Position numbers and translations under genes: made by a program. Under the pieces are notes generated by a model that had not been told where the DNA came from, ran no database searches, and saw only the letters and a list, made by a program, of their open reading frames with translations. From contig JAJZJZ010000002.1 of assembly GCA_021809755.1 (NCBI GenBank), positions 31,731-95,730 of the forward strand: a stretch of 64,000 nucleotides of DNA, written 5' to 3'. Source of the DNA: Thermoplasmata archaeon. GTDB taxonomy: Archaea; Thermoplasmatota; Thermoplasmata; Thermoplasmatales; Thermoplasmataceae. Positions 7,663-64,000 of the stretch are shown piece after piece (the stretch's first letter is position 1; every line of letters starts with the position of its first letter).

Positions 7663-8418
7663 TTACAGTTCATAGCATGAGGAACCCGTATCCTGAAGAG
7701 CGCATTCCATTGAACTGTATTTCATCTTACGGTTGTCCATAAAGGTCTTTACATGATTTAGGGCAAGCTCGGGGGTATTGTTTTCCCTGCTGATATGCAG
7801 AAGAAGAATCTTTGTCTTATTGGAAGCAATCTTTGACAGAGCTTCCCCAGTCTGCTCATTTGAAAGATGCCCGTATGGTCCAAGTATTCTCTTCTTCAAT
7901 TTCTCATGATACTTTCCATTCCTGAGCATCTCAACATCATGATTTGATTCCAGGGCAAGAATATCTGAATTTGACATTGGCTCGACCAGATCGTCAGGGA
8001 AATGTCCCATATCTGAAAACACGGATATCTTCTTCCCTTTGTATTCTATGACATAACCCACAGGATCAACGGCATCATGTGGAATCTTGTACGATTTAAT
8101 CAAAAAATTTCCAATAGCTGTTTCACCATTCATTCGGTAATATTTATCAACATTAAGGGCAAGTGCCGTCTTTTCCCTGAGATAGATATCAGCCTTAAGT
8201 TTCCTTGCAGCTGCATTAATCCCTGAACTATGGTCAGAGTGCTCATGGGTGACAAACACAGAGATATTCCTTTCAGAAAGACCAAGTTCGTCCATTCTTT
8301 TCTGAAATTTTATTGCTGAAATGCCGAAGTCAATGGTAATAATGTCATATTTATCCCAGATAATTGTGCAGTTTCCTCCACTGCCACTCCTGACAACACA
8401 AAACCCGCTTTCAATCAA
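7663..8418 (-). CDS. MBL-fold metallo-hydrolase (YycJ-like)
   Basis: SGSGGNCTII N-terminus, VTHEHSDHSSGI metal motif, SDMGHFPDD, LLLHIS. Confidence 0.88.
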   Translation of the reverse strand: MIESGFCVVRSGSGGNCTIIWDKYDIITIDFGISAIKFQKRMDELGLSERNISVFVTHEHSDHSSGINAAARKLKADIYLREKTALALNVDKYYRMNGETAIGNFLIKSYKIPHDAVDPVGYVIEYKGKKISVFSDMGHFPDDLVEPMSNSDILALESNHDVEMLRNGKYHEKLKKRILGPYGHLSNEQTGEALSKIASNKTKILLLHISRENNTPELALNHVKTFMDNRKMKYSSMECALQDTGSSCYEL

Positions 8419-25748: not shown

Positions 25749-26141
25749 ATGAAGTCTAAGATTAGAGTCGAATTCTCAGCAGAGCAAATAACAGTAGGAG
25801 ATAGGAAATATGATCCTAAAAATTGCACTATTAAGGGTATTAAGGGAAAGAACAGAGCTGCTGGATACCTTTCCATAGCTCTCATAGCTATCACTTCATT
25901 CTTGACTTTCATATTTTTAATGAAAATTCTTCACCTAAGTGAAGCATCAATCTATTATTCAATCCTATTCAGTTCCACGGTCTTTATTGCTGTTCTTTGT
26001 TCAATATACATATATATTAATTATGTATTGAATTATCTTGGAATTTATTGTGATGGGAGATTAATATTTAAAGTTGGAAACATCCGACGCAACCGCAAAA
26101 TTAAAAGAACGATTGTAGATGTTTTTGAAAAAAATAGTTAA
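25749..26141 (+). CDS. Small two-TM protein resembling the 60070-60480 product
   Basis: RVEFSAEQITVGDRKYDPKNCTIKGIKG followed by a TM hairpin; same layout as MEVEISENKVIIQGKAYVADNIKVTLKEL plus TM hairpin. Confidence 0.55.
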   Translation: MKSKIRVEFSAEQITVGDRKYDPKNCTIKGIKGKNRAAGYLSIALIAITSFLTFIFLMKILHLSEASIYYSILFSSTVFIAVLCSIYIYINYVLNYLGIYCDGRLIFKVGNIRRNRKIKRTIVDVFEKNS

Positions 26142-32215: not shown

Positions 32216-33184
32216 CTATTGCTTCCTAGCCAGATAGGACAATCGCCTGTTACGGTTTCTCTGAGTGAGCCACGAAATTAGCCTTCCAAATCTTCCCATT
32301 AAAGGGGGAATTGGGTTATCCCATCCTTCAAGTTTACGAATCAGGGAAGCCACAGCGCCGGGATTACCTGTCATCTTTGCTGCGTATCTATCTGCGCTTC
32401 CGTTTTGATTAAGAGCCATAAATCCAATTATTAACGGGGAAAATATAATCTCGATCAGTAACAGGACGCCGACAATAGGAAGGATGATGATGCCAAGGTT
32501 TGGAAATCCACCCATCAAGATATAAGCAAAAATGTCAGCTTCAAAAGCGAAGACAGTTGCAATCAGGTATACTATTCTGGTGTTTTCGCCGTGGGAGTAT
32601 TTGAAGAATGAATAGGCAAGTAAAGCGTCCGTTTCATCTGGAGATAGTGTTTCTATTAACGAATCAAGCAAAAATATCTTCCTTTCCTTTAGCGTGATAG
32701 CAATCTTTTTCCGGCGGAAATCTGTAAACTGAGAAAGATAGACAGAGGGAATACCTTTGTCGTTGCTTTCAAGCATTGTGGCTATCCTTTCAGTCAGTTC
32801 CGCACTGTAAACCCCACTGGGAAATGTCGGGCCAGCCTTTGTCTTCAAATAATGGGCAATGGCGTATGAAGCAGCAAATATGGACCCGGTTAAAATTACG
32901 ATTCCGATGACCTGCTTTTCCAGCAGTGATGGTAAATATACAAGCGTTGACACCAAGGTTGCTACAGTTCCCTCAAACAGGTATAATGCTAAGAATACGG
33001 TAGTTCTGGACTTTATGCTGTTTCTCAGTAGCCACACCTCAAGATAAGAAGAAACCAGAAGTGAAGACCATATGACGGGAAGAAGATAGATGAGCTGAAG
33101 CAATCTGCTTTCACCAACCCCTATTAGAATGATCAGTGGGATACTCATTGGTATACTGGCAAAATTGTCTGGACTCCTTCGCAT
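32216..33184 (-). CDS. M48/HtpX-like membrane protein lacking the HExxH motif (putative pseudoprotease)
   Basis: LSPDETDALLAYSFFKYSHGEN aligns by eye with LSPEELEAVLAHELGHIKHGD; SADRYAAKMTGNPGAVASLIRKL matches the M48 D-x-x-A downstream block. Confidence 0.6.
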   Translation of the reverse strand: MRRSPDNFASIPMSIPLIILIGVGESRLLQLIYLLPVIWSSLLVSSYLEVWLLRNSIKSRTTVFLALYLFEGTVATLVSTLVYLPSLLEKQVIGIVILTGSIFAASYAIAHYLKTKAGPTFPSGVYSAELTERIATMLESNDKGIPSVYLSQFTDFRRKKIAITLKERKIFLLDSLIETLSPDETDALLAYSFFKYSHGENTRIVYLIATVFAFEADIFAYILMGGFPNLGIIILPIVGVLLLIEIIFSPLIIGFMALNQNGSADRYAAKMTGNPGAVASLIRKLEGWDNPIPPLMGRFGRLISWLTQRNRNRRLSYLARKQ

Positions 33185-57423: not shown

Positions 57424-58638
57424 ATGCTGGAGATTGTAAATGCGCTAAAAGCGGAGGATTGGCATATGATTAAATCAATGAAAGAACAGGGAATGAGCAT
57501 AAGTGAGATAGCAAGGAGAACTGGTGCAAGCAGGAAAACTGTTAGGAAATACATCGCAATGGAAAAACCTGCGAAATACAGCAGAGGGGGGAGACAGTCC
57601 GTCATTGCCCCTTACACCGATTATGTAAGGAGTAGGATTGACAAATATAACCTCTCTGCTGTCAGGATATATGAAGAGATCAGGGAAAAAGGTTATCCTG
57701 GGTCATACACAACTGTCAAGAGGCTATGCAGGGAACTGCGCAAGGACCGCAGGATACAGGCTGTATACAGGTATGAGACTGAACCTGGAAAACAGTCCCA
57801 GGTCGATTTCGGTGAATTCGGTCACATTGAAATTGATGGAAAGCAAAGAAAACTCTACGCCTTCTCCATGATACTTGGATATTCCAGGATGAGGTATGTG
57901 AAATTCACCACTGACATCTCAACAGAGAATGTCATTAAGATACACCTCAATGCATTTTCATTCTATGGTGGATTCACTGACACGATACTATACGACAACA
58001 TGAAGCAGATCGTCATAGACCGGAAGATAAAGGCATCTGAATCGACATTCAACCAGAAGTTCCTAGATTTTGCAGAGTACTATGGCATAGTCATAAGGTT
58101 ATGCTATCCCTACAGGCCTGAAACAAAGGGGAAGATTTAGAATACAATCAAATATCTGAGGTACAATTTCTTCAATGGAAGGACTTTCACCGATCTCAAT
58201 GATGTAAACATACAGTGCGCAGGGTGGCTGAATAAGGTAAACTCACAGGTACATGGAACAACACATGAAATACCCTTGGAAAGGCTGAAGAAAGAATCAC
58301 TCAATCCGGTATCTGCAGTACCGGCATACATGACAAGGAAGGAGGAGATCCGCAAGGTCTCAAGGGATTGTTATATATCATACAAGGGAAACAGGTATTC
58401 CGTCCCTTGGAAATATTCGGGAAGAGAATGCAGAATAGTTGAGGAATCTTCCATTCTAAAGATAGAGATCGATTCCAGTATTGTTGCCGAACATGGAATT
58501 CTCACAGGAACAGGAAGGACGTCAAGGAAGAAGGAACATTTTGAAGGATTGCTTAAGGCCATAAGGGAAGAGAATTCCGCCATATATGAGCAGAAAGTGG
58601 AAGAGAGGAACCTGAAGACATATGACGGGGTGATCTGA
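57424..58638 (+). pseudogene. istA: istA with an in-frame TAG at 58138-58140
   Basis: Frame is continuous apart from KI*NTIKYLRYNFFNGRTF; the intact copy reads KVERNIGYLRSNFFSGRTF. Confidence 0.9.
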
Positions 58639-59396
58639 TGGATTCATATGAAAGAGTTCATGAGTATCTTTCAAAACTTGGTCTCACAAGAATGGAAAGC
58701 ATCATTGATTCATACCTTGAAGCATCCCATGACAGAGCGGTAATGGACATACTGGATCACCTTCTTTCAGAAGAGCTGAAACATAAGGTCTCAAAGAAGA
58801 CAGAGAACATGCTTAACTGGTCCGGTTTTCCCTTCAGGAAGACGCTGGATGATTTCGATTTCTCATTTCAACCATCCATTGACAGATCTGTCATTGATGA
58901 ACTCATGACCATGAGATATTTACACAACACCGAGAATGTTGTTTTTCTTGGTCCGCCGGGTGTGGGGAAGACACATCTGTCAGTAGCACTGGGAATGAGG
59001 GCAATCATGTCGGATATCCCGGTTTATTATACATCTGCAATGAAACTTATCCAGACACTTAAGAGAGACTATGATCTCAAGAGGCTGGAATACAGGATAA
59101 AGACATATTCAAGGTTCAGGCTCATGATAGTGGACGAGATCGGTTACCTTCCCCTGACCAGAAAGGAATCGAACCTGTTCTTCCAGTTTGTTTCATCAAG
59201 ATATGAGAAGCGTTCCACCATATACACATCCAACAAGTCATTCTCAGAGTGGGGTGAGATATTAGGGGATCAGGTCATTGCGGCAACTGTCCTTGACAGG
59301 ATACTGCACCACTGTGTGGTGGTGAATATAAGGGGAGAATCCTATAGGCTGAAGGACAGAAGAAAGAGTTCTTTACCAACAATGAAAAAGGAGTGA
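58638..59396 (+). CDS. istB: IS21-family helper ATPase IstB
   Basis: FLGPPGVGKTHLSVALGM, LMIVDEIGYLPLTRKESN; intact 252 aa. Confidence 0.95.
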   Translation: MDSYERVHEYLSKLGLTRMESIIDSYLEASHDRAVMDILDHLLSEELKHKVSKKTENMLNWSGFPFRKTLDDFDFSFQPSIDRSVIDELMTMRYLHNTENVVFLGPPGVGKTHLSVALGMRAIMSDIPVYYTSAMKLIQTLKRDYDLKRLEYRIKTYSRFRLMIVDEIGYLPLTRKESNLFFQFVSSRYEKRSTIYTSNKSFSEWGEILGDQVIAATVLDRILHHCVVVNIRGESYRLKDRRKSSLPTMKKE

Positions 59397-60069: not shown

Positions 60070-60480
60070 TTATTTAGAGGAAAACTCTACCTTTCCTGCT
60101 ATTGAAATTATTTTATCTATTACTGGTCTTCTCTCCCTTGAATAGCGTAATCCTATATTTCTATTGTCACCAAGTGAAATAGTAGCATAATTGATGAAGT
60201 ATTTAAATAATATCTTCGTAAATAAAAGCGTAAAACTTATTGTATAAATTGCTAAAAGTGGGAGAAAGTACGTGGCTATGTAAATCTGCTTCAAAGATTC
60301 AAACATAAGAGTGGAAAGCAAAATATATACAAATATCAGAAAAATAAGGTATGTGTTACCTCTATATTTATTTAGTTCTTTTAGAGTAACTTTTATGTTA
60401 TCTGCTACGTAAGCTTTACCTTGGATAATAACCTTATTTTCTGATATTTCGACTTCCATTTTTTCCACCTTATGCTGCAC
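60070..60480 (-). CDS. Small membrane protein in an operon with the 60470-61177 ORF
   Basis: 136 aa, TM hairpin; start overlaps the upstream stop by 11 nt; layout resembles 25749-26141. Confidence 0.65.
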   Translation of the reverse strand: MQHKVEKMEVEISENKVIIQGKAYVADNIKVTLKELNKYRGNTYLIFLIFVYILLSTLMFESLKQIYIATYFLPLLAIYTISFTLLFTKILFKYFINYATISLGDNRNIGLRYSRERRPVIDKIISIAGKVEFSSK

Positions 60481-61177
60481 CCAATGCCCCTAAATAGGCA
60501 GCCCCTAAACCCGCTAACGTACTAAGCACTGCGGCACCCAGAGTTATTGACACCCCTGCTTCGGCAGCAGCGTCACTAGCAGCAACCAATGCACTAGCGC
60601 CAGTGTAAAGACCAACCAAAAACCCTGCAACCCAAGCAACTGCTGTTGAACCTACCAAAGCTTGGTGACCAACAGATGCATTGACAAGATCAGCGATTCC
60701 TGTGATTATCCAGCCCATTCCTGTTGCATACATTGCGTTAATCATGGACTGTATAGCATTTCCGTGAGATGGACTCCAGAAAGCGTAGTAGTAATAGACA
60801 TATGCTGATGATGAGCTAATCGAAGAACCAGATTCGAAATAGCTCGTGGCGGTTCCAACCTCGTTCAGCATCAAAGAACCTCCAAATGCCGCATAAAATC
60901 CAAAAAATAGCATTGTTACCAGCAACACACCAATAATCATGCCTATTCGCTTTCGGTTCATTTTCTTGCGTTTGACATCTACTGATCCATCAGTTCCTTG
61001 TGAAATAAGGTAAACGCAATTATCTTCTTGCCTTTTATTTAAGATATTGCTAATACCATATTTCTCCATACCTATGACAAAACTTGTCTCTGTCATATTA
61101 CTCTTTAGTTTATTATAATATATAATACTTTCATTTTGCATAACAGTCAAATCATGGCTGATACAACCATTCTGCAT
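60470..61177 (-). CDS. Putative secreted protein with Gly/Ala-rich hydrophobic C-terminus (bacteriocin-like?)
   Basis: Internal signal/TM MNRKRIGMIIGVLLVTMLFFGFYAAFG, then hydrophobic C-terminal segment ...AAAEAGVSITLGAAVLSTLAGLGAAYLGALGAA. Confidence 0.55.
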   Translation of the reverse strand: MQNGCISHDLTVMQNESIIYYNKLKSNMTETSFVIGMEKYGISNILNKRQEDNCVYLISQGTDGSVDVKRKKMNRKRIGMIIGVLLVTMLFFGFYAAFGGSLMLNEVGTATSYFESGSSISSSSAYVYYYYAFWSPSHGNAIQSMINAMYATGMGWIITGIADLVNASVGHQALVGSTAVAWVAGFLVGLYTGASALVAASDAAAEAGVSITLGAAVLSTLAGLGAAYLGALGAA

Positions 61178-61285
61178 TACGTTTTATTGGAAATGAGAAA
61201 CGAATAAAGATCAGTTGAAAAATAATTCTCATGTGGGGCTTATAGGAAAAGTCTTTTATGTATTCAAAAATTAAGAAGCCATCTG

Positions 61286-62713
61286 GTGAACTTTCATTTG
61301 GTATCTCAAGAAAAGAAATTGATACTATATTATGAACCTTCCGATTATTTTTCGAGGTTTCTATCCTATATTGTGGATTTGTTTTTCATAATGTCAATAG
61401 TCACATTGGTTGAAGTATATTTTTTTAACGAACCTCCCATTATCTATCAATTTCCATATTATTATTTGTACACGCATAATTCTATACAAAGACTATTGCT
61501 AAACAACAATGGTCTAGATTTTCTTCTCCTTTTTCTTTTGATTAATTTTTTTTATTATCTTTTTACTTATTTCTTAGGTTACACCATTGGTGGAATTCTT
61601 CTAAACATGAGGGTAAAATACTTCGAAAAAACTAAAGTCAGTATGGTGAAATTAAATTCGAAGTTAAGTCCTTTAGAGAAGTTAGAGAAAGCAATGGTTA
61701 AATCCATTTCAATGACAATACCATTTATGCCCATAATCGATAACATTCTATCGAAAAATGGAGTAAAATATACAGATAGACTCATCCAATCCATAACAGT
61801 GATCCCTGTATATATGAAACCAATGAATGGCTTAAGTGGTTTGGGTAAAAATAAGATGGTTGCAAAAGTCAAAAGTAGACTTATCACTTATAACGAATTT
61901 ATAGAATATCATAAAATTGACACTAAAAAGGATAGGAGTAACATAAAGAATAGAATCGCCAGAATGAATACAAATGAAAAAATATCTATGGACCCCGCAC
62001 ACTCTAGAAGAGTTTATGACATACTTAAAATGAAGATATTTTATCTTACTGGATTTCCTAAAATTAATTTAAACAATGAAACCCCAGAACAAAATGGCAT
62101 ATACAAAGTTATTAGGAGGCAATATTTTTCAATCTTCTATATAGGTCTGCTTACCTATTTTATTCCATTTATAACAGCAATATTGGTTGGGATACACACA
62201 ACAAACGTTTCAACATTCCCCACACCTTTGCCCTTGGCGACAAACAAGTATTCTCCAGCCAATGGGTATGCTGGTCTTCAGCAAAGTTTGTTTAATAACA
62301 ACATTGAAATTGACCTAAAATTTTTTATTTTAGGTGGAATCTCAATGTTTTTCCTTTCGTACCTCGGTATATATTCATCAGTTTATATACCAAATCTCAT
62401 CATAGCAAGCTCCTTACATTCACAATATTGGTATTATTTGATTTTCGCTGTTGTTCCTCAAGCAATCCCAGAAGCGCTCGGTTACGTCTTTGGAATCAGT
62501 GCAGGCCTTTATTTATCTAAAATTCTCGTAGATTCTTTTATTTCATATGTAAGAGGTGTTGAATCAGGTACTTTCTTGGGATTAATTTATGAAAATCTAG
62601 AACAGTTTTTTATATATTTTGCAATATCATTTTTTCTAATTCTTTTCGCTTCTTATATTGAAGCATATGTCACATCATATCTTCTCAATCATTTATATTT
62701 CGTAAGGTCTTAG
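61286..62713 (+). CDS. RDD-domain plus SpoIIM/DUF95-like fusion membrane protein
   Basis: RFLSYIVDLFFI and YFLGYTIGGILLNMRVKYF (RDD-like); C-terminus with AVVPQAIPEALGYVFGISAGLYLSK (SpoIIM-like). Confidence 0.6.
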   Translation: MNFHLVSQEKKLILYYEPSDYFSRFLSYIVDLFFIMSIVTLVEVYFFNEPPIIYQFPYYYLYTHNSIQRLLLNNNGLDFLLLFLLINFFYYLFTYFLGYTIGGILLNMRVKYFEKTKVSMVKLNSKLSPLEKLEKAMVKSISMTIPFMPIIDNILSKNGVKYTDRLIQSITVIPVYMKPMNGLSGLGKNKMVAKVKSRLITYNEFIEYHKIDTKKDRSNIKNRIARMNTNEKISMDPAHSRRVYDILKMKIFYLTGFPKINLNNETPEQNGIYKVIRRQYFSIFYIGLLTYFIPFITAILVGIHTTNVSTFPTPLPLATNKYSPANGYAGLQQSLFNNNIEIDLKFFILGGISMFFLSYLGIYSSVYIPNLIIASSLHSQYWYYLIFAVVPQAIPEALGYVFGISAGLYLSKILVDSFISYVRGVESGTFLGLIYENLEQFFIYFAISFFLILFASYIEAYVTSYLLNHLYFVRS

Positions 62714-62896
62714 AAGGCAGTGTAGGAGGCCACTCTTAGTTTCCACTATGACTTTGGAATCTCCCAACCTTTTTGATGCGATTACAGTTTCTCTAGTTTC
62801 AAAGAACAAATCGTCCCCTCTCTTCAGGGTCACATCATTTCTCGCAAAGCCACTGTTCGGTATAATTCTTTCATAGTAGTGAATAATAAAATACAT
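62693..62896 (-). CDS. Small hypothetical protein
   Basis: 67 aa, soluble, charged; convergent with 61286-62713. Confidence 0.35.
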   Translation of the reverse strand: MYFIIHYYERIIPNSGFARNDVTLKRGDDLFFETRETVIASKRLGDSKVIVETKSGLLHCLLRPYEI

Positions 62897-62950
62897 TTTT
62901 TAATGTTAACATATATCACGGAATATATATATGGTTTAGTTCAGACCTTG

Positions 62951-64000
62951 ATGAAAAGAATAAAAGAATATTTGAATAGAGAATCGATCCGCGGAAAGAT
63001 GAGTTCGATCATTGAATCTGCAAGAGCCAATAAGAAGAAGACCTTTGCGATCATTGCAGCGGTTGTAATGATTATATCGGGTTCAGCCTACATAATTAAT
63101 TTCCTAAACCATAACAATAATTCAGTTTCCATCAATCTGGATGTTTCTCTTACAGGTTCAATACCGAATATGTCTGCAGGAACGGATATTAAGGTAGGAG
63201 GAATAAATTCATTTGCCCTAGGCACAACTTCTCCTTCGTCCTATGTGAACAATTTCATACTCACTCCATCAAACGCAACATTTCTAATCACTGCTGTAAA
63301 TTCTTCATTATCAACTTTTAATACTCAATATGTTGCTAATAATGCAACCACCAATTCAACACTTCTCTCAATGATAAGTCAGCAGCAGAGCTTTATGCCA
63401 ATAAACGACAGATCGATGGATATTGTGTTTGATCATTCACTGAATAATTCATGGGATTATTCAATTCCTTTTACCGATCTTTACAATAATCTGTCACAGG
63501 GATGGAGAGAAATGCACTTTGATGCAATTGCATCTCTCTCCATATATGGCCTATACAATTTTGTTTTTAATAACCATGTTTATGCATACTACTATTACAA
63601 TGCAATAGACTATAACCCATATTCAAGAACGAATACATTGTCAATAGAACCAAAATTCAATCTGTCAAAACCCTTCATGGTCAAATCCCTTCAATCGCCT
63701 GGAATAAGTAAAATCCATCCCGGAAGGATCATAGGTTCTGGAGGAGGTAGCAGTTGCAGATCATATTCAACTGTAATGACCGTATATGCAAATACAATGA
63801 CAGTACCATTTCCACTTGCAATCCTAAGTGGCGATGTTTCTAGCATCCCCGCAATGAGTGATACCAGCACTTCTATCCTGCAATCCCTGTCATATCAGGG
63901 AGTCTCAACAATACCATTTTCAGATCAATACACAACCAGTGACAACCCAACATGGTCTTCCAACCATGTGAATGTAACAAATTCTTCAGGGAGCACTACC
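62951..64000 (+). CDS. N-terminal part of a large secreted/surface protein (runs off window)
   Basis: MKRIKEYLNRESIRGKMSSIIESARANKKKTFAIIAAVVMIISGSAYIINF then Asn/Ser/Thr-rich extracellular-type sequence; frame open to the window end, absent from the ORF track. Confidence 0.75.
   Translation, partial: MKRIKEYLNRESIRGKMSSIIESARANKKKTFAIIAAVVMIISGSAYIINFLNHNNNSVSINLDVSLTGSIPNMSAGTDIKVGGINSFALGTTSPSSYVNNFILTPSNATFLITAVNSSLSTFNTQYVANNATTNSTLLSMISQQQSFMPINDRSMDIVFDHSLNNSWDYSIPFTDLYNNLSQGWREMHFDAIASLSIYGLYNFVFNNHVYAYYYYNAIDYNPYSRTNTLSIEPKFNLSKPFMVKSLQSPGISKIHPGRIIGSGGGSSCRSYSTVMTVYANTMTVPFPLAILSGDVSSIPAMSDTSTSILQSLSYQGVSTIPFSDQYTTSDNPTWSSNHVNVTNSSGSTT

Follow-up and report, generated by a model that had tools for sequence, protein, structure and literature searches.

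We describe a gene cluster at positions 60070-62713 of a 64,000-nucleotide (nt) stretch of archaeal DNA (the window), which corresponds to C49:31731-95730 of the draft genome G000 (2.08 Mb, 179 contigs, 86% complete) and ends where its contig ends, so that a gene starting at 62879 is cut off. The cluster comprises a gene for a hydrophobic precursor protein (pre, used here for gene and protein), an adjoining small putative immunity gene (imm) and a divergent gene for a membrane protein that joins an RDD-like part to a SpoIIM domain. Compared genomes are denoted G0xx; the compared family includes Ferroplasma acidarmanus Fer1 (G027), and the genus of the window includes E-plasma (G003).

Genes and features of the locus

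All three open reading frames (ORFs) that an earlier note on this DNA had reported are found where it placed them. The features of the locus, with the revised start sites discussed below, are as follows.

60470..61096, minus strand: pre, likely coding sequence, 208 amino acids (aa); homologues in G077, G008, G061 and G020; ratio of nonsynonymous to synonymous substitution rates (dN/dS) 0.12-0.22
60887..60946, minus strand: signal/anchor transmembrane (TM) segment of pre, after KKMNRKR; from hydropathy and the alignment of pre homologues
60473..60664, minus strand: Gly/Ala-rich hydrophobic C-terminal segment of pre, putative active part, without Cys, Lys or Arg; from the sequence
60070..60459, minus strand: imm, putative immunity gene, 129 aa, two TM segments between hydrophilic ends; relatives adjoin pre elsewhere
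61113..61126, minus strand: TATA-like promoter element of pre-imm, ATTATATATTATAA, 17-30 nt upstream of ATG 61096
61286..62713, plus strand: RDD-SpoIIM membrane protein, 475 aa, divergent from pre; Pfam SpoIIM E 4.3e-8
62162..62674, plus strand: SpoIIM domain, residues 293-463 of the 475-aa protein; Pfam
61346..61639, plus strand: RDD-like N-terminal part, residues 21-118 of the 475-aa protein; Pfam, sub-threshold
61122..61257, no strand assigned: short repeated element between the divergent genes; second copy at G000:C144:3116-3251, 79% identical

The note had taken pre to be a frame of 235 aa starting at ATG 61177, which is probably wrong. The true start is most likely ATG 61096, giving 208 residues, because homology to the G077 and G008 proteins begins there (Met27 of the longer frame), the TATA-like box lies upstream of it at a position that would fit a leaderless archaeal transcript, and the first 26 codons of the longer frame overlap the repeat at 61122-61257. 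The imm gene more likely starts at ATG 60459 than at the start of the 136-aa ORF; this ATG stands behind GGTGG and 10 nt past the pre stop codon, and the corresponding spacing in the G008 relative is 9 nt. With this start the overlap of the precursor with the small gene, as described in the note, gives way to two genes that would be tandem and abutting.

The pre protein consists of a leader of ~45 residues with a basic stretch at its end, one TM segment and a hydrophobic Gly/Ala-rich region. Its C-terminus is hydrophobic and Cys-free as described in the note, the last 85 residues containing no Cys, no Lys or Arg, three acidic residues and 74% G, A, V, I, L, M or F; the sole Cys of the 208-aa form sits in the leader. 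Neither pre nor imm matched any family in Pfam or NCBIfam, pre matched no known circular-bacteriocin family model there, and the 235-aa protein matched no known structural or pilus family, the finding that the note had named as contrary to its proposal. The fusion of RDD and SpoIIM is borne out, the SpoIIM domain scoring above the Pfam cut-off and the RDD part, sub-threshold in the window protein (0.007), passing in a family member (3.5e-7).

Conservation of pre and imm as a pair

The order of pre followed directly by imm recurs in G077 (core 97% identical), G008 (63%) and G061 (about 50%), making a unit common to four genomes of four genera, G000 included, and pre is patchy, being found in 5 of the 77 genomes of the family. 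For pre, dN/dS is 0.12 (G077) and 0.22 (G008), and for imm 0.21 (G077); on this comparison, conservation of the pair across genera with such low ratios is more than chance. The near-identity with G077 across genera suggests recent transfer, G077 being a draft genome with 5% contamination. Weak pre matches in other families (G044, G040, G047 and G059) were dismissed as chance, falling in antiporter-subunit-like (MnhB-type) or enzyme genes, and viral contigs held no relative of pre or RDD-SpoIIM.

Furthermore, G061 carries two tandem imm copies beside pre, followed on the same strand by the remnant of a truncated RDD gene. Relatives of imm without a recognisable pre are present in G073 and G003, and the imm of G002 lies at a contig end. 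In G077, pre bears a stop codon and a frameshift beside an intact imm, and in G020 it is decayed, assembly errors being possible. From this patchiness, the duplicated and orphan imm genes and the decayed pre we infer that the pair evolves as a toxin-immunity pair would. The possible immunity role that the note had given to the small two-TM gene thus fits both its conserved place beside pre and its evolution. The two-gene order, the decay of the toxin gene and the likely horizontal spread would also suit an intracellular addiction (toxin-antitoxin) locus, non-secreted and acting on the host's own membrane; we regard this as very improbable, since the TM-led leader/core precursor and the ties of the wider family with proteases and RDD-SpoIIM, described below, point to processing and export.

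Other genes of related kind were seen in these genomes. At 25749-26141 (plus strand) the window holds a distant imm paralogue (profile E 2e-7), which is preceded by a surface-protein fragment of 201 aa whose repeats are beta-propeller-like. In E-plasma, L063 5660-7357 encodes a secreted protein of 565 aa that has an Ala-rich, hydrophobic stretch close to the C-terminus, and is followed by an imm-family gene at 7772-8215, possibly a second kind of toxin sharing the imm immunity family. Within G000, L036 1220-2482 (G000:C144) encodes a 310-aa secreted protein with an Ala-rich hydrophobic region and then a 104-aa membrane protein, a toxin-immunity-like pair with a copy of the 61122-61257 repeat ~0.6 kb beyond it.

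The RDD-SpoIIM family and its cassettes

With the 475-aa window protein as sole query, relatives were retrieved at 1e-21 to 1e-9, and the profile search gave E 1.6e-106, the window protein being included in the model; by these searches it is a member of an RDD-SpoIIM family of Ferroplasma and relatives, which we define here. The tree groups it with the G059, G020:C4 and G073:C9 proteins. The family profile matches 24 of the 117 genomes of the order; among 293 genomes of the phylum it finds, outside the order, only four weak RDD-side stretches. Within the order we counted 42 RDD-SpoIIM frames and fragments; for 29 of these the gene immediately upstream, on the same strand, encodes an M48 metalloprotease, and the two genes mostly overlap, by 1-44 nt. 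All three proteases tested match Pfam M48 (1e-19 to 7e-8), and the HExxH residues His199, Glu200 and His203 do not vary across an alignment of 16 members. A leader/core precursor gene in turn adjoins 24 of the 28 M48 genes linked to RDD-SpoIIM, 22 of them on the same strand within 115 nt and two divergently within 41 nt; the four exceptions are two contig ends (G059, G061:C6), a frameshifted locus (G076:C31) and a locus whose precursor is two frames farther up (G020:C23). Ten M48 homologues remote from RDD-SpoIIM, from seven genomes, served as a control, and none of them adjoins a leader/core precursor. M48 is replaced at G020:C4 (L067) and G073:C9 (L152), two loci in the tree clade of the window, by an S26-like signal peptidase together with a small two-TM protein (about 72 aa). 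The precursor-M48-RDD-SpoIIM cassette is carried by F. acidarmanus Fer1, where the precursor has 157 aa and lies at about 989.1-989.6 kb of NC_021592.1, and E-plasma holds two (L157, L161). This tight tie of the family to M48 proteases and leader/core precursors strengthens, on the evidence of linkage, the idea put forward in the note. A single contig of WH1.bin9 (G077:C59; L136 / L168) carries four precursor-M48 units and two RDD-SpoIIM genes, one truncated, and so offers a natural series of copies sharing leaders and differing in cores.

We aligned 24 cassette precursors, some of them truncated. They are ~110-180 aa long, with a leader (e.g. MESNILNPTYKELIAMEKYRN), one TM segment ending GVPIY, a box around GDIxxYExxHxGxxPS and a hypervariable hydrophobic core, and their termini (VIAW, IVGY, IAAF, IIAA etc.) fall exactly at the stop codon and may resemble the C-termini of AS-48 or circularin. 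The core, ~80-95 aa in length, is anionic and very hydrophobic, and its hydrophobic C-terminus is fixed; Lys/Arg number 0-3 and Asp/Glu 2-14 among the last 85 residues, which have no Cys in the precursors inspected. Mean identity is 0.77 over leader and TM versus 0.27 over the core (29 pairs whose leaders are ≥0.6 identical), and the tandem copies in G077 and G061 have leaders 0.97 identical, with core identities of 0.25 and 0.49. Because leaders are conserved while cores are hypervariable, even in tandem copies, the precursors show, at the sequence level, the leader-guided diversification of cargo that is also seen in bacteriocins and polymorphic toxins. For one cassette core AlphaFold predicted five helices at low confidence (pLDDT 66, pTM 0.55); Foldseek with two low-confidence AlphaFold models gave nothing usable, the cassette core having no PDB match with E <5. 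Searches of PDB sequences with pre and the cassette precursors returned no match, and none of the 24 precursors matched a circular-bacteriocin family in Pfam or NCBIfam.

A dedicated membrane protease, a conserved leader with hypervariable cargo and tandem variants would also be found if the cassettes and the window pair made a peptide pheromone or signal, the anchored precursor being cut by that protease (M48/Ste24-like or S26) for kin to sense and the hypervariable cores providing strain specificity. We consider this improbable, as very hydrophobic cores of this length, predicted to be all-helical, would make a large signal, no conserved receptor or regulator gene adjoins the cassettes, and duplicated imm and imm without pre fit immunity better. 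The precursors might instead be pilin-like or other surface or membrane structural proteins, with M48 and RDD-SpoIIM as assembly or quality-control factors, as the N-terminal TM segment, the leader and a class III-like motif before the TM segment in 15 of the 24 cassette precursors could indicate. That motif is absent in 9 of the 24 and in all window-type members, an inconsistency on which we rejected pilin identity; leaders are about 35-50 aa long, hydrophobic helices make up the C-terminal parts, neither a pilus ATPase gene nor a platform gene was seen beside the loci, no family matched, and hypervariable cores and patchiness are unlike structural genes, all of which makes a structural role quite improbable.

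Other genes were noted around the window locus and elsewhere in the window. Just outside the locus, 57424-59396 (plus strand) holds istB and a broken istA of an IS21-type insertion sequence (IS), recognised by eye. Adjoining RDD-SpoIIM, 62879-64000 (plus strand) encodes a large secreted Ser/Thr/Asn-rich protein, cut by the contig end, a relative of which adjoins RDD-SpoIIM in G077 too (L059 2375-3028; E 2e-84) and is truncated there. At 32216-33184 (minus strand) lies a gene for an M48-like membrane protein with DALLAYSFFKYSH at the position of HExxH; it may be a non-catalytic M48 homologue, and G002 and G008 have similar proteins.

A model for the window locus and its relatives

We propose that Ferroplasma and relatives have an archaeal bacteriocin-like (archaeocin) system, of which the window probably contains a divergent form, a reading based on gene architecture, conservation, leader-core evolution and gene linkage. 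Window pre shares the layout of the cassette precursors (leader, basic stretch, TM segment, spacer, YYYY-W-SPS box, hydrophobic helices and small C-terminal residues), and RDD-SpoIIM is clustered with pre-imm in three genomes, namely G000, G077, where all three genes lie within 3.5 kb, and G061, as a remnant. Several observations weigh against this proposal. The hhalign probability of pre against the cassette precursors is weak at 43% over 38 columns (the YY..W.PS box) and falls to 1-3% without leader and TM segment, the core score being just above all of 200 column-shuffled controls. No M48 gene adjoins the window locus, and the genome as assembled has no cassette-type M48, its sole candidates being one generic HtpX-like gene and an M48-like gene that lacks HExxH. 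The M48 cassettes have no obvious immunity gene, and the low-confidence models gave no PDB fold match. Finally, the conservation of gene order for which the note had asked is partial, as the divergent order at the window differs from that in G077, and G008 has the pre-imm pair, yet its assembly, 87% complete, contains no match to RDD-SpoIIM. Homology of pre to the cassette precursors is thus only suggestive, and the genome as assembled has no match to the cassette-precursor profile; because of this and the missing cassette M48 we rank the locus as an M48-less, imm-bearing relative rather than a cassette member, although its RDD-SpoIIM belongs to the family.

The unconserved divergent order, the repeat in between, the IS genes nearby, and the want of RDD-SpoIIM in the G008 assembly and of M48 at the window would likewise follow if pre-imm were a toxin-immunity pair and RDD-SpoIIM a mere neighbour, brought by mobile elements and working elsewhere. 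This we hold to be unlikely, in that the RDD-relative remnant of G061 stands directly after pre-imm-imm on the same strand, the three genes keep close company in G077, and the RDD-SpoIIM family is the constant partner of other precursors. What is supported of the bacteriocin-like locus envisaged in the note is a toxin-immunity-like pair clustered with RDD-SpoIIM; a sequence or fold relation to known circular bacteriocins was not detected in the searches above.

In the bacteriocin-like model, pre would be made as a leader and signal-anchor precursor and inserted by its own TM segment, with the hydrophobic C-terminal part facing outward. A protease would then free the C-terminal peptide, this being the co-encoded M48 in most related cassettes, the S26-like signal peptidase in two others and an enzyme from elsewhere at the window. 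RDD-SpoIIM, as the component common to the variants, would act in maturation or in release, the role that SpoIIM has in the circular-bacteriocin clusters of bacteria. The core, weakly acidic and nearly devoid of Lys and Arg, would be charged near neutrality and protonated at the low outside pH, and because protonated there could enter the membranes of competing cells, while imm would protect the producer. A more far-reaching version, which we put forward only tentatively, is that Ferroplasma and relatives produce a large class of hypervariable peptides that depend on SpoIIM and are possibly cyclised head to tail. In it, M48 would be the leader peptidase and might act as ligase too, the last residues, conserved in position and nature, would mark the end that is ligated, and the window locus would represent a branch that lacks M48 and carries an immunity gene of its own. 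Cyclisation of an archaeal peptide is raised here only as a possibility.

The closest parallel is found in the circular bacteriocins (AS-48, circularin and gassericin groups), which share a leader, a hydrophobic Cys-free core ending in a hydrophobic residue and all-helical by prediction for one cassette core, a SpoIIM/DUF95 (PF01944) membrane protein in the cluster, a putative immunity protein of small size (in the window type), several copies of the precursor and, in a few bacterial clusters, M48 or other peptidases (PMC8659200). SpoIIM accompanies this class, as the note had stated; it is a marker gene of the class (PMC8659200, PMC7132975) and is present in nearly every cluster, and when it was removed in the case of leucocyclicin Q, the mature peptide stayed within the cell (PMC7132975). 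For circular bacteriocins neither the leader protease nor the cyclase is known, and M48 genes are present in two group-1 bacterial clusters (PMC8659200); the word 'archaea' is absent from the texts of both papers. The system described here differs in being archaeal, in the fusion of RDD to SpoIIM, in a precursor with its own TM segment and in a core that is anionic and about 80-95 aa or more; among the ORFs read, no ABC transporter gene adjoined the window locus or its relatives, no dedicated search having been made.

Halocin C8 and other archaeocins likewise have an archaeal precursor with a putative active part that is C-terminal and freed by proteolysis. Halocin C8 is Cys-rich, whereas the window core is Cys-free, no family match connects the two, and a protease is co-encoded in most relatives here. 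The cognate protease of HalC8 is unidentified (PMC12893001). Sulfolobicins (SulA/SulB, SulC) are also membrane-associated proteinaceous toxins of thermoacidophilic archaea, of about 20 kDa, but are Sulfolobus proteins, compared here by description only, and the parts of that source consulted report no SpoIIM or M48 link (PMC5733018). Archaeal SpoIIM arCOG01994 belongs to the same superfamily but is described as mostly standing alone or pairing with arCOG02177 and is given a role in membrane remodelling, with no RDD, M48 or bacteriocin link mentioned (Makarova et al. 2015, PMC5898192).

The cassettes point to a sizeable group of archaeal bacteriocin-like systems that is apparently undescribed so far. 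To our knowledge, bacteriocins are hardly known from thermoacidophilic archaea except Sulfolobus. We found no published description of the cassettes, Makarova et al. 2019 (mBio, on archaeal antimicrobial peptides and polymorphic toxins) lying outside our coverage, so that an earlier mention there is possible. Published antiSMASH and BACTIBASE searches of the E-plasma genome returned no bacteriocin (PMC10354927), and it nonetheless holds two cassettes. If true, an M48-SpoIIM peptide class would offer a minimal model of three genes for the maturation enzyme that circular bacteriocins have long lacked, and the cassette of F. acidarmanus Fer1 makes the question of cutting and closing directly testable. 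Furthermore, the cassettes may help to explain competition among the many close archaeal relatives in acid mine drainage.
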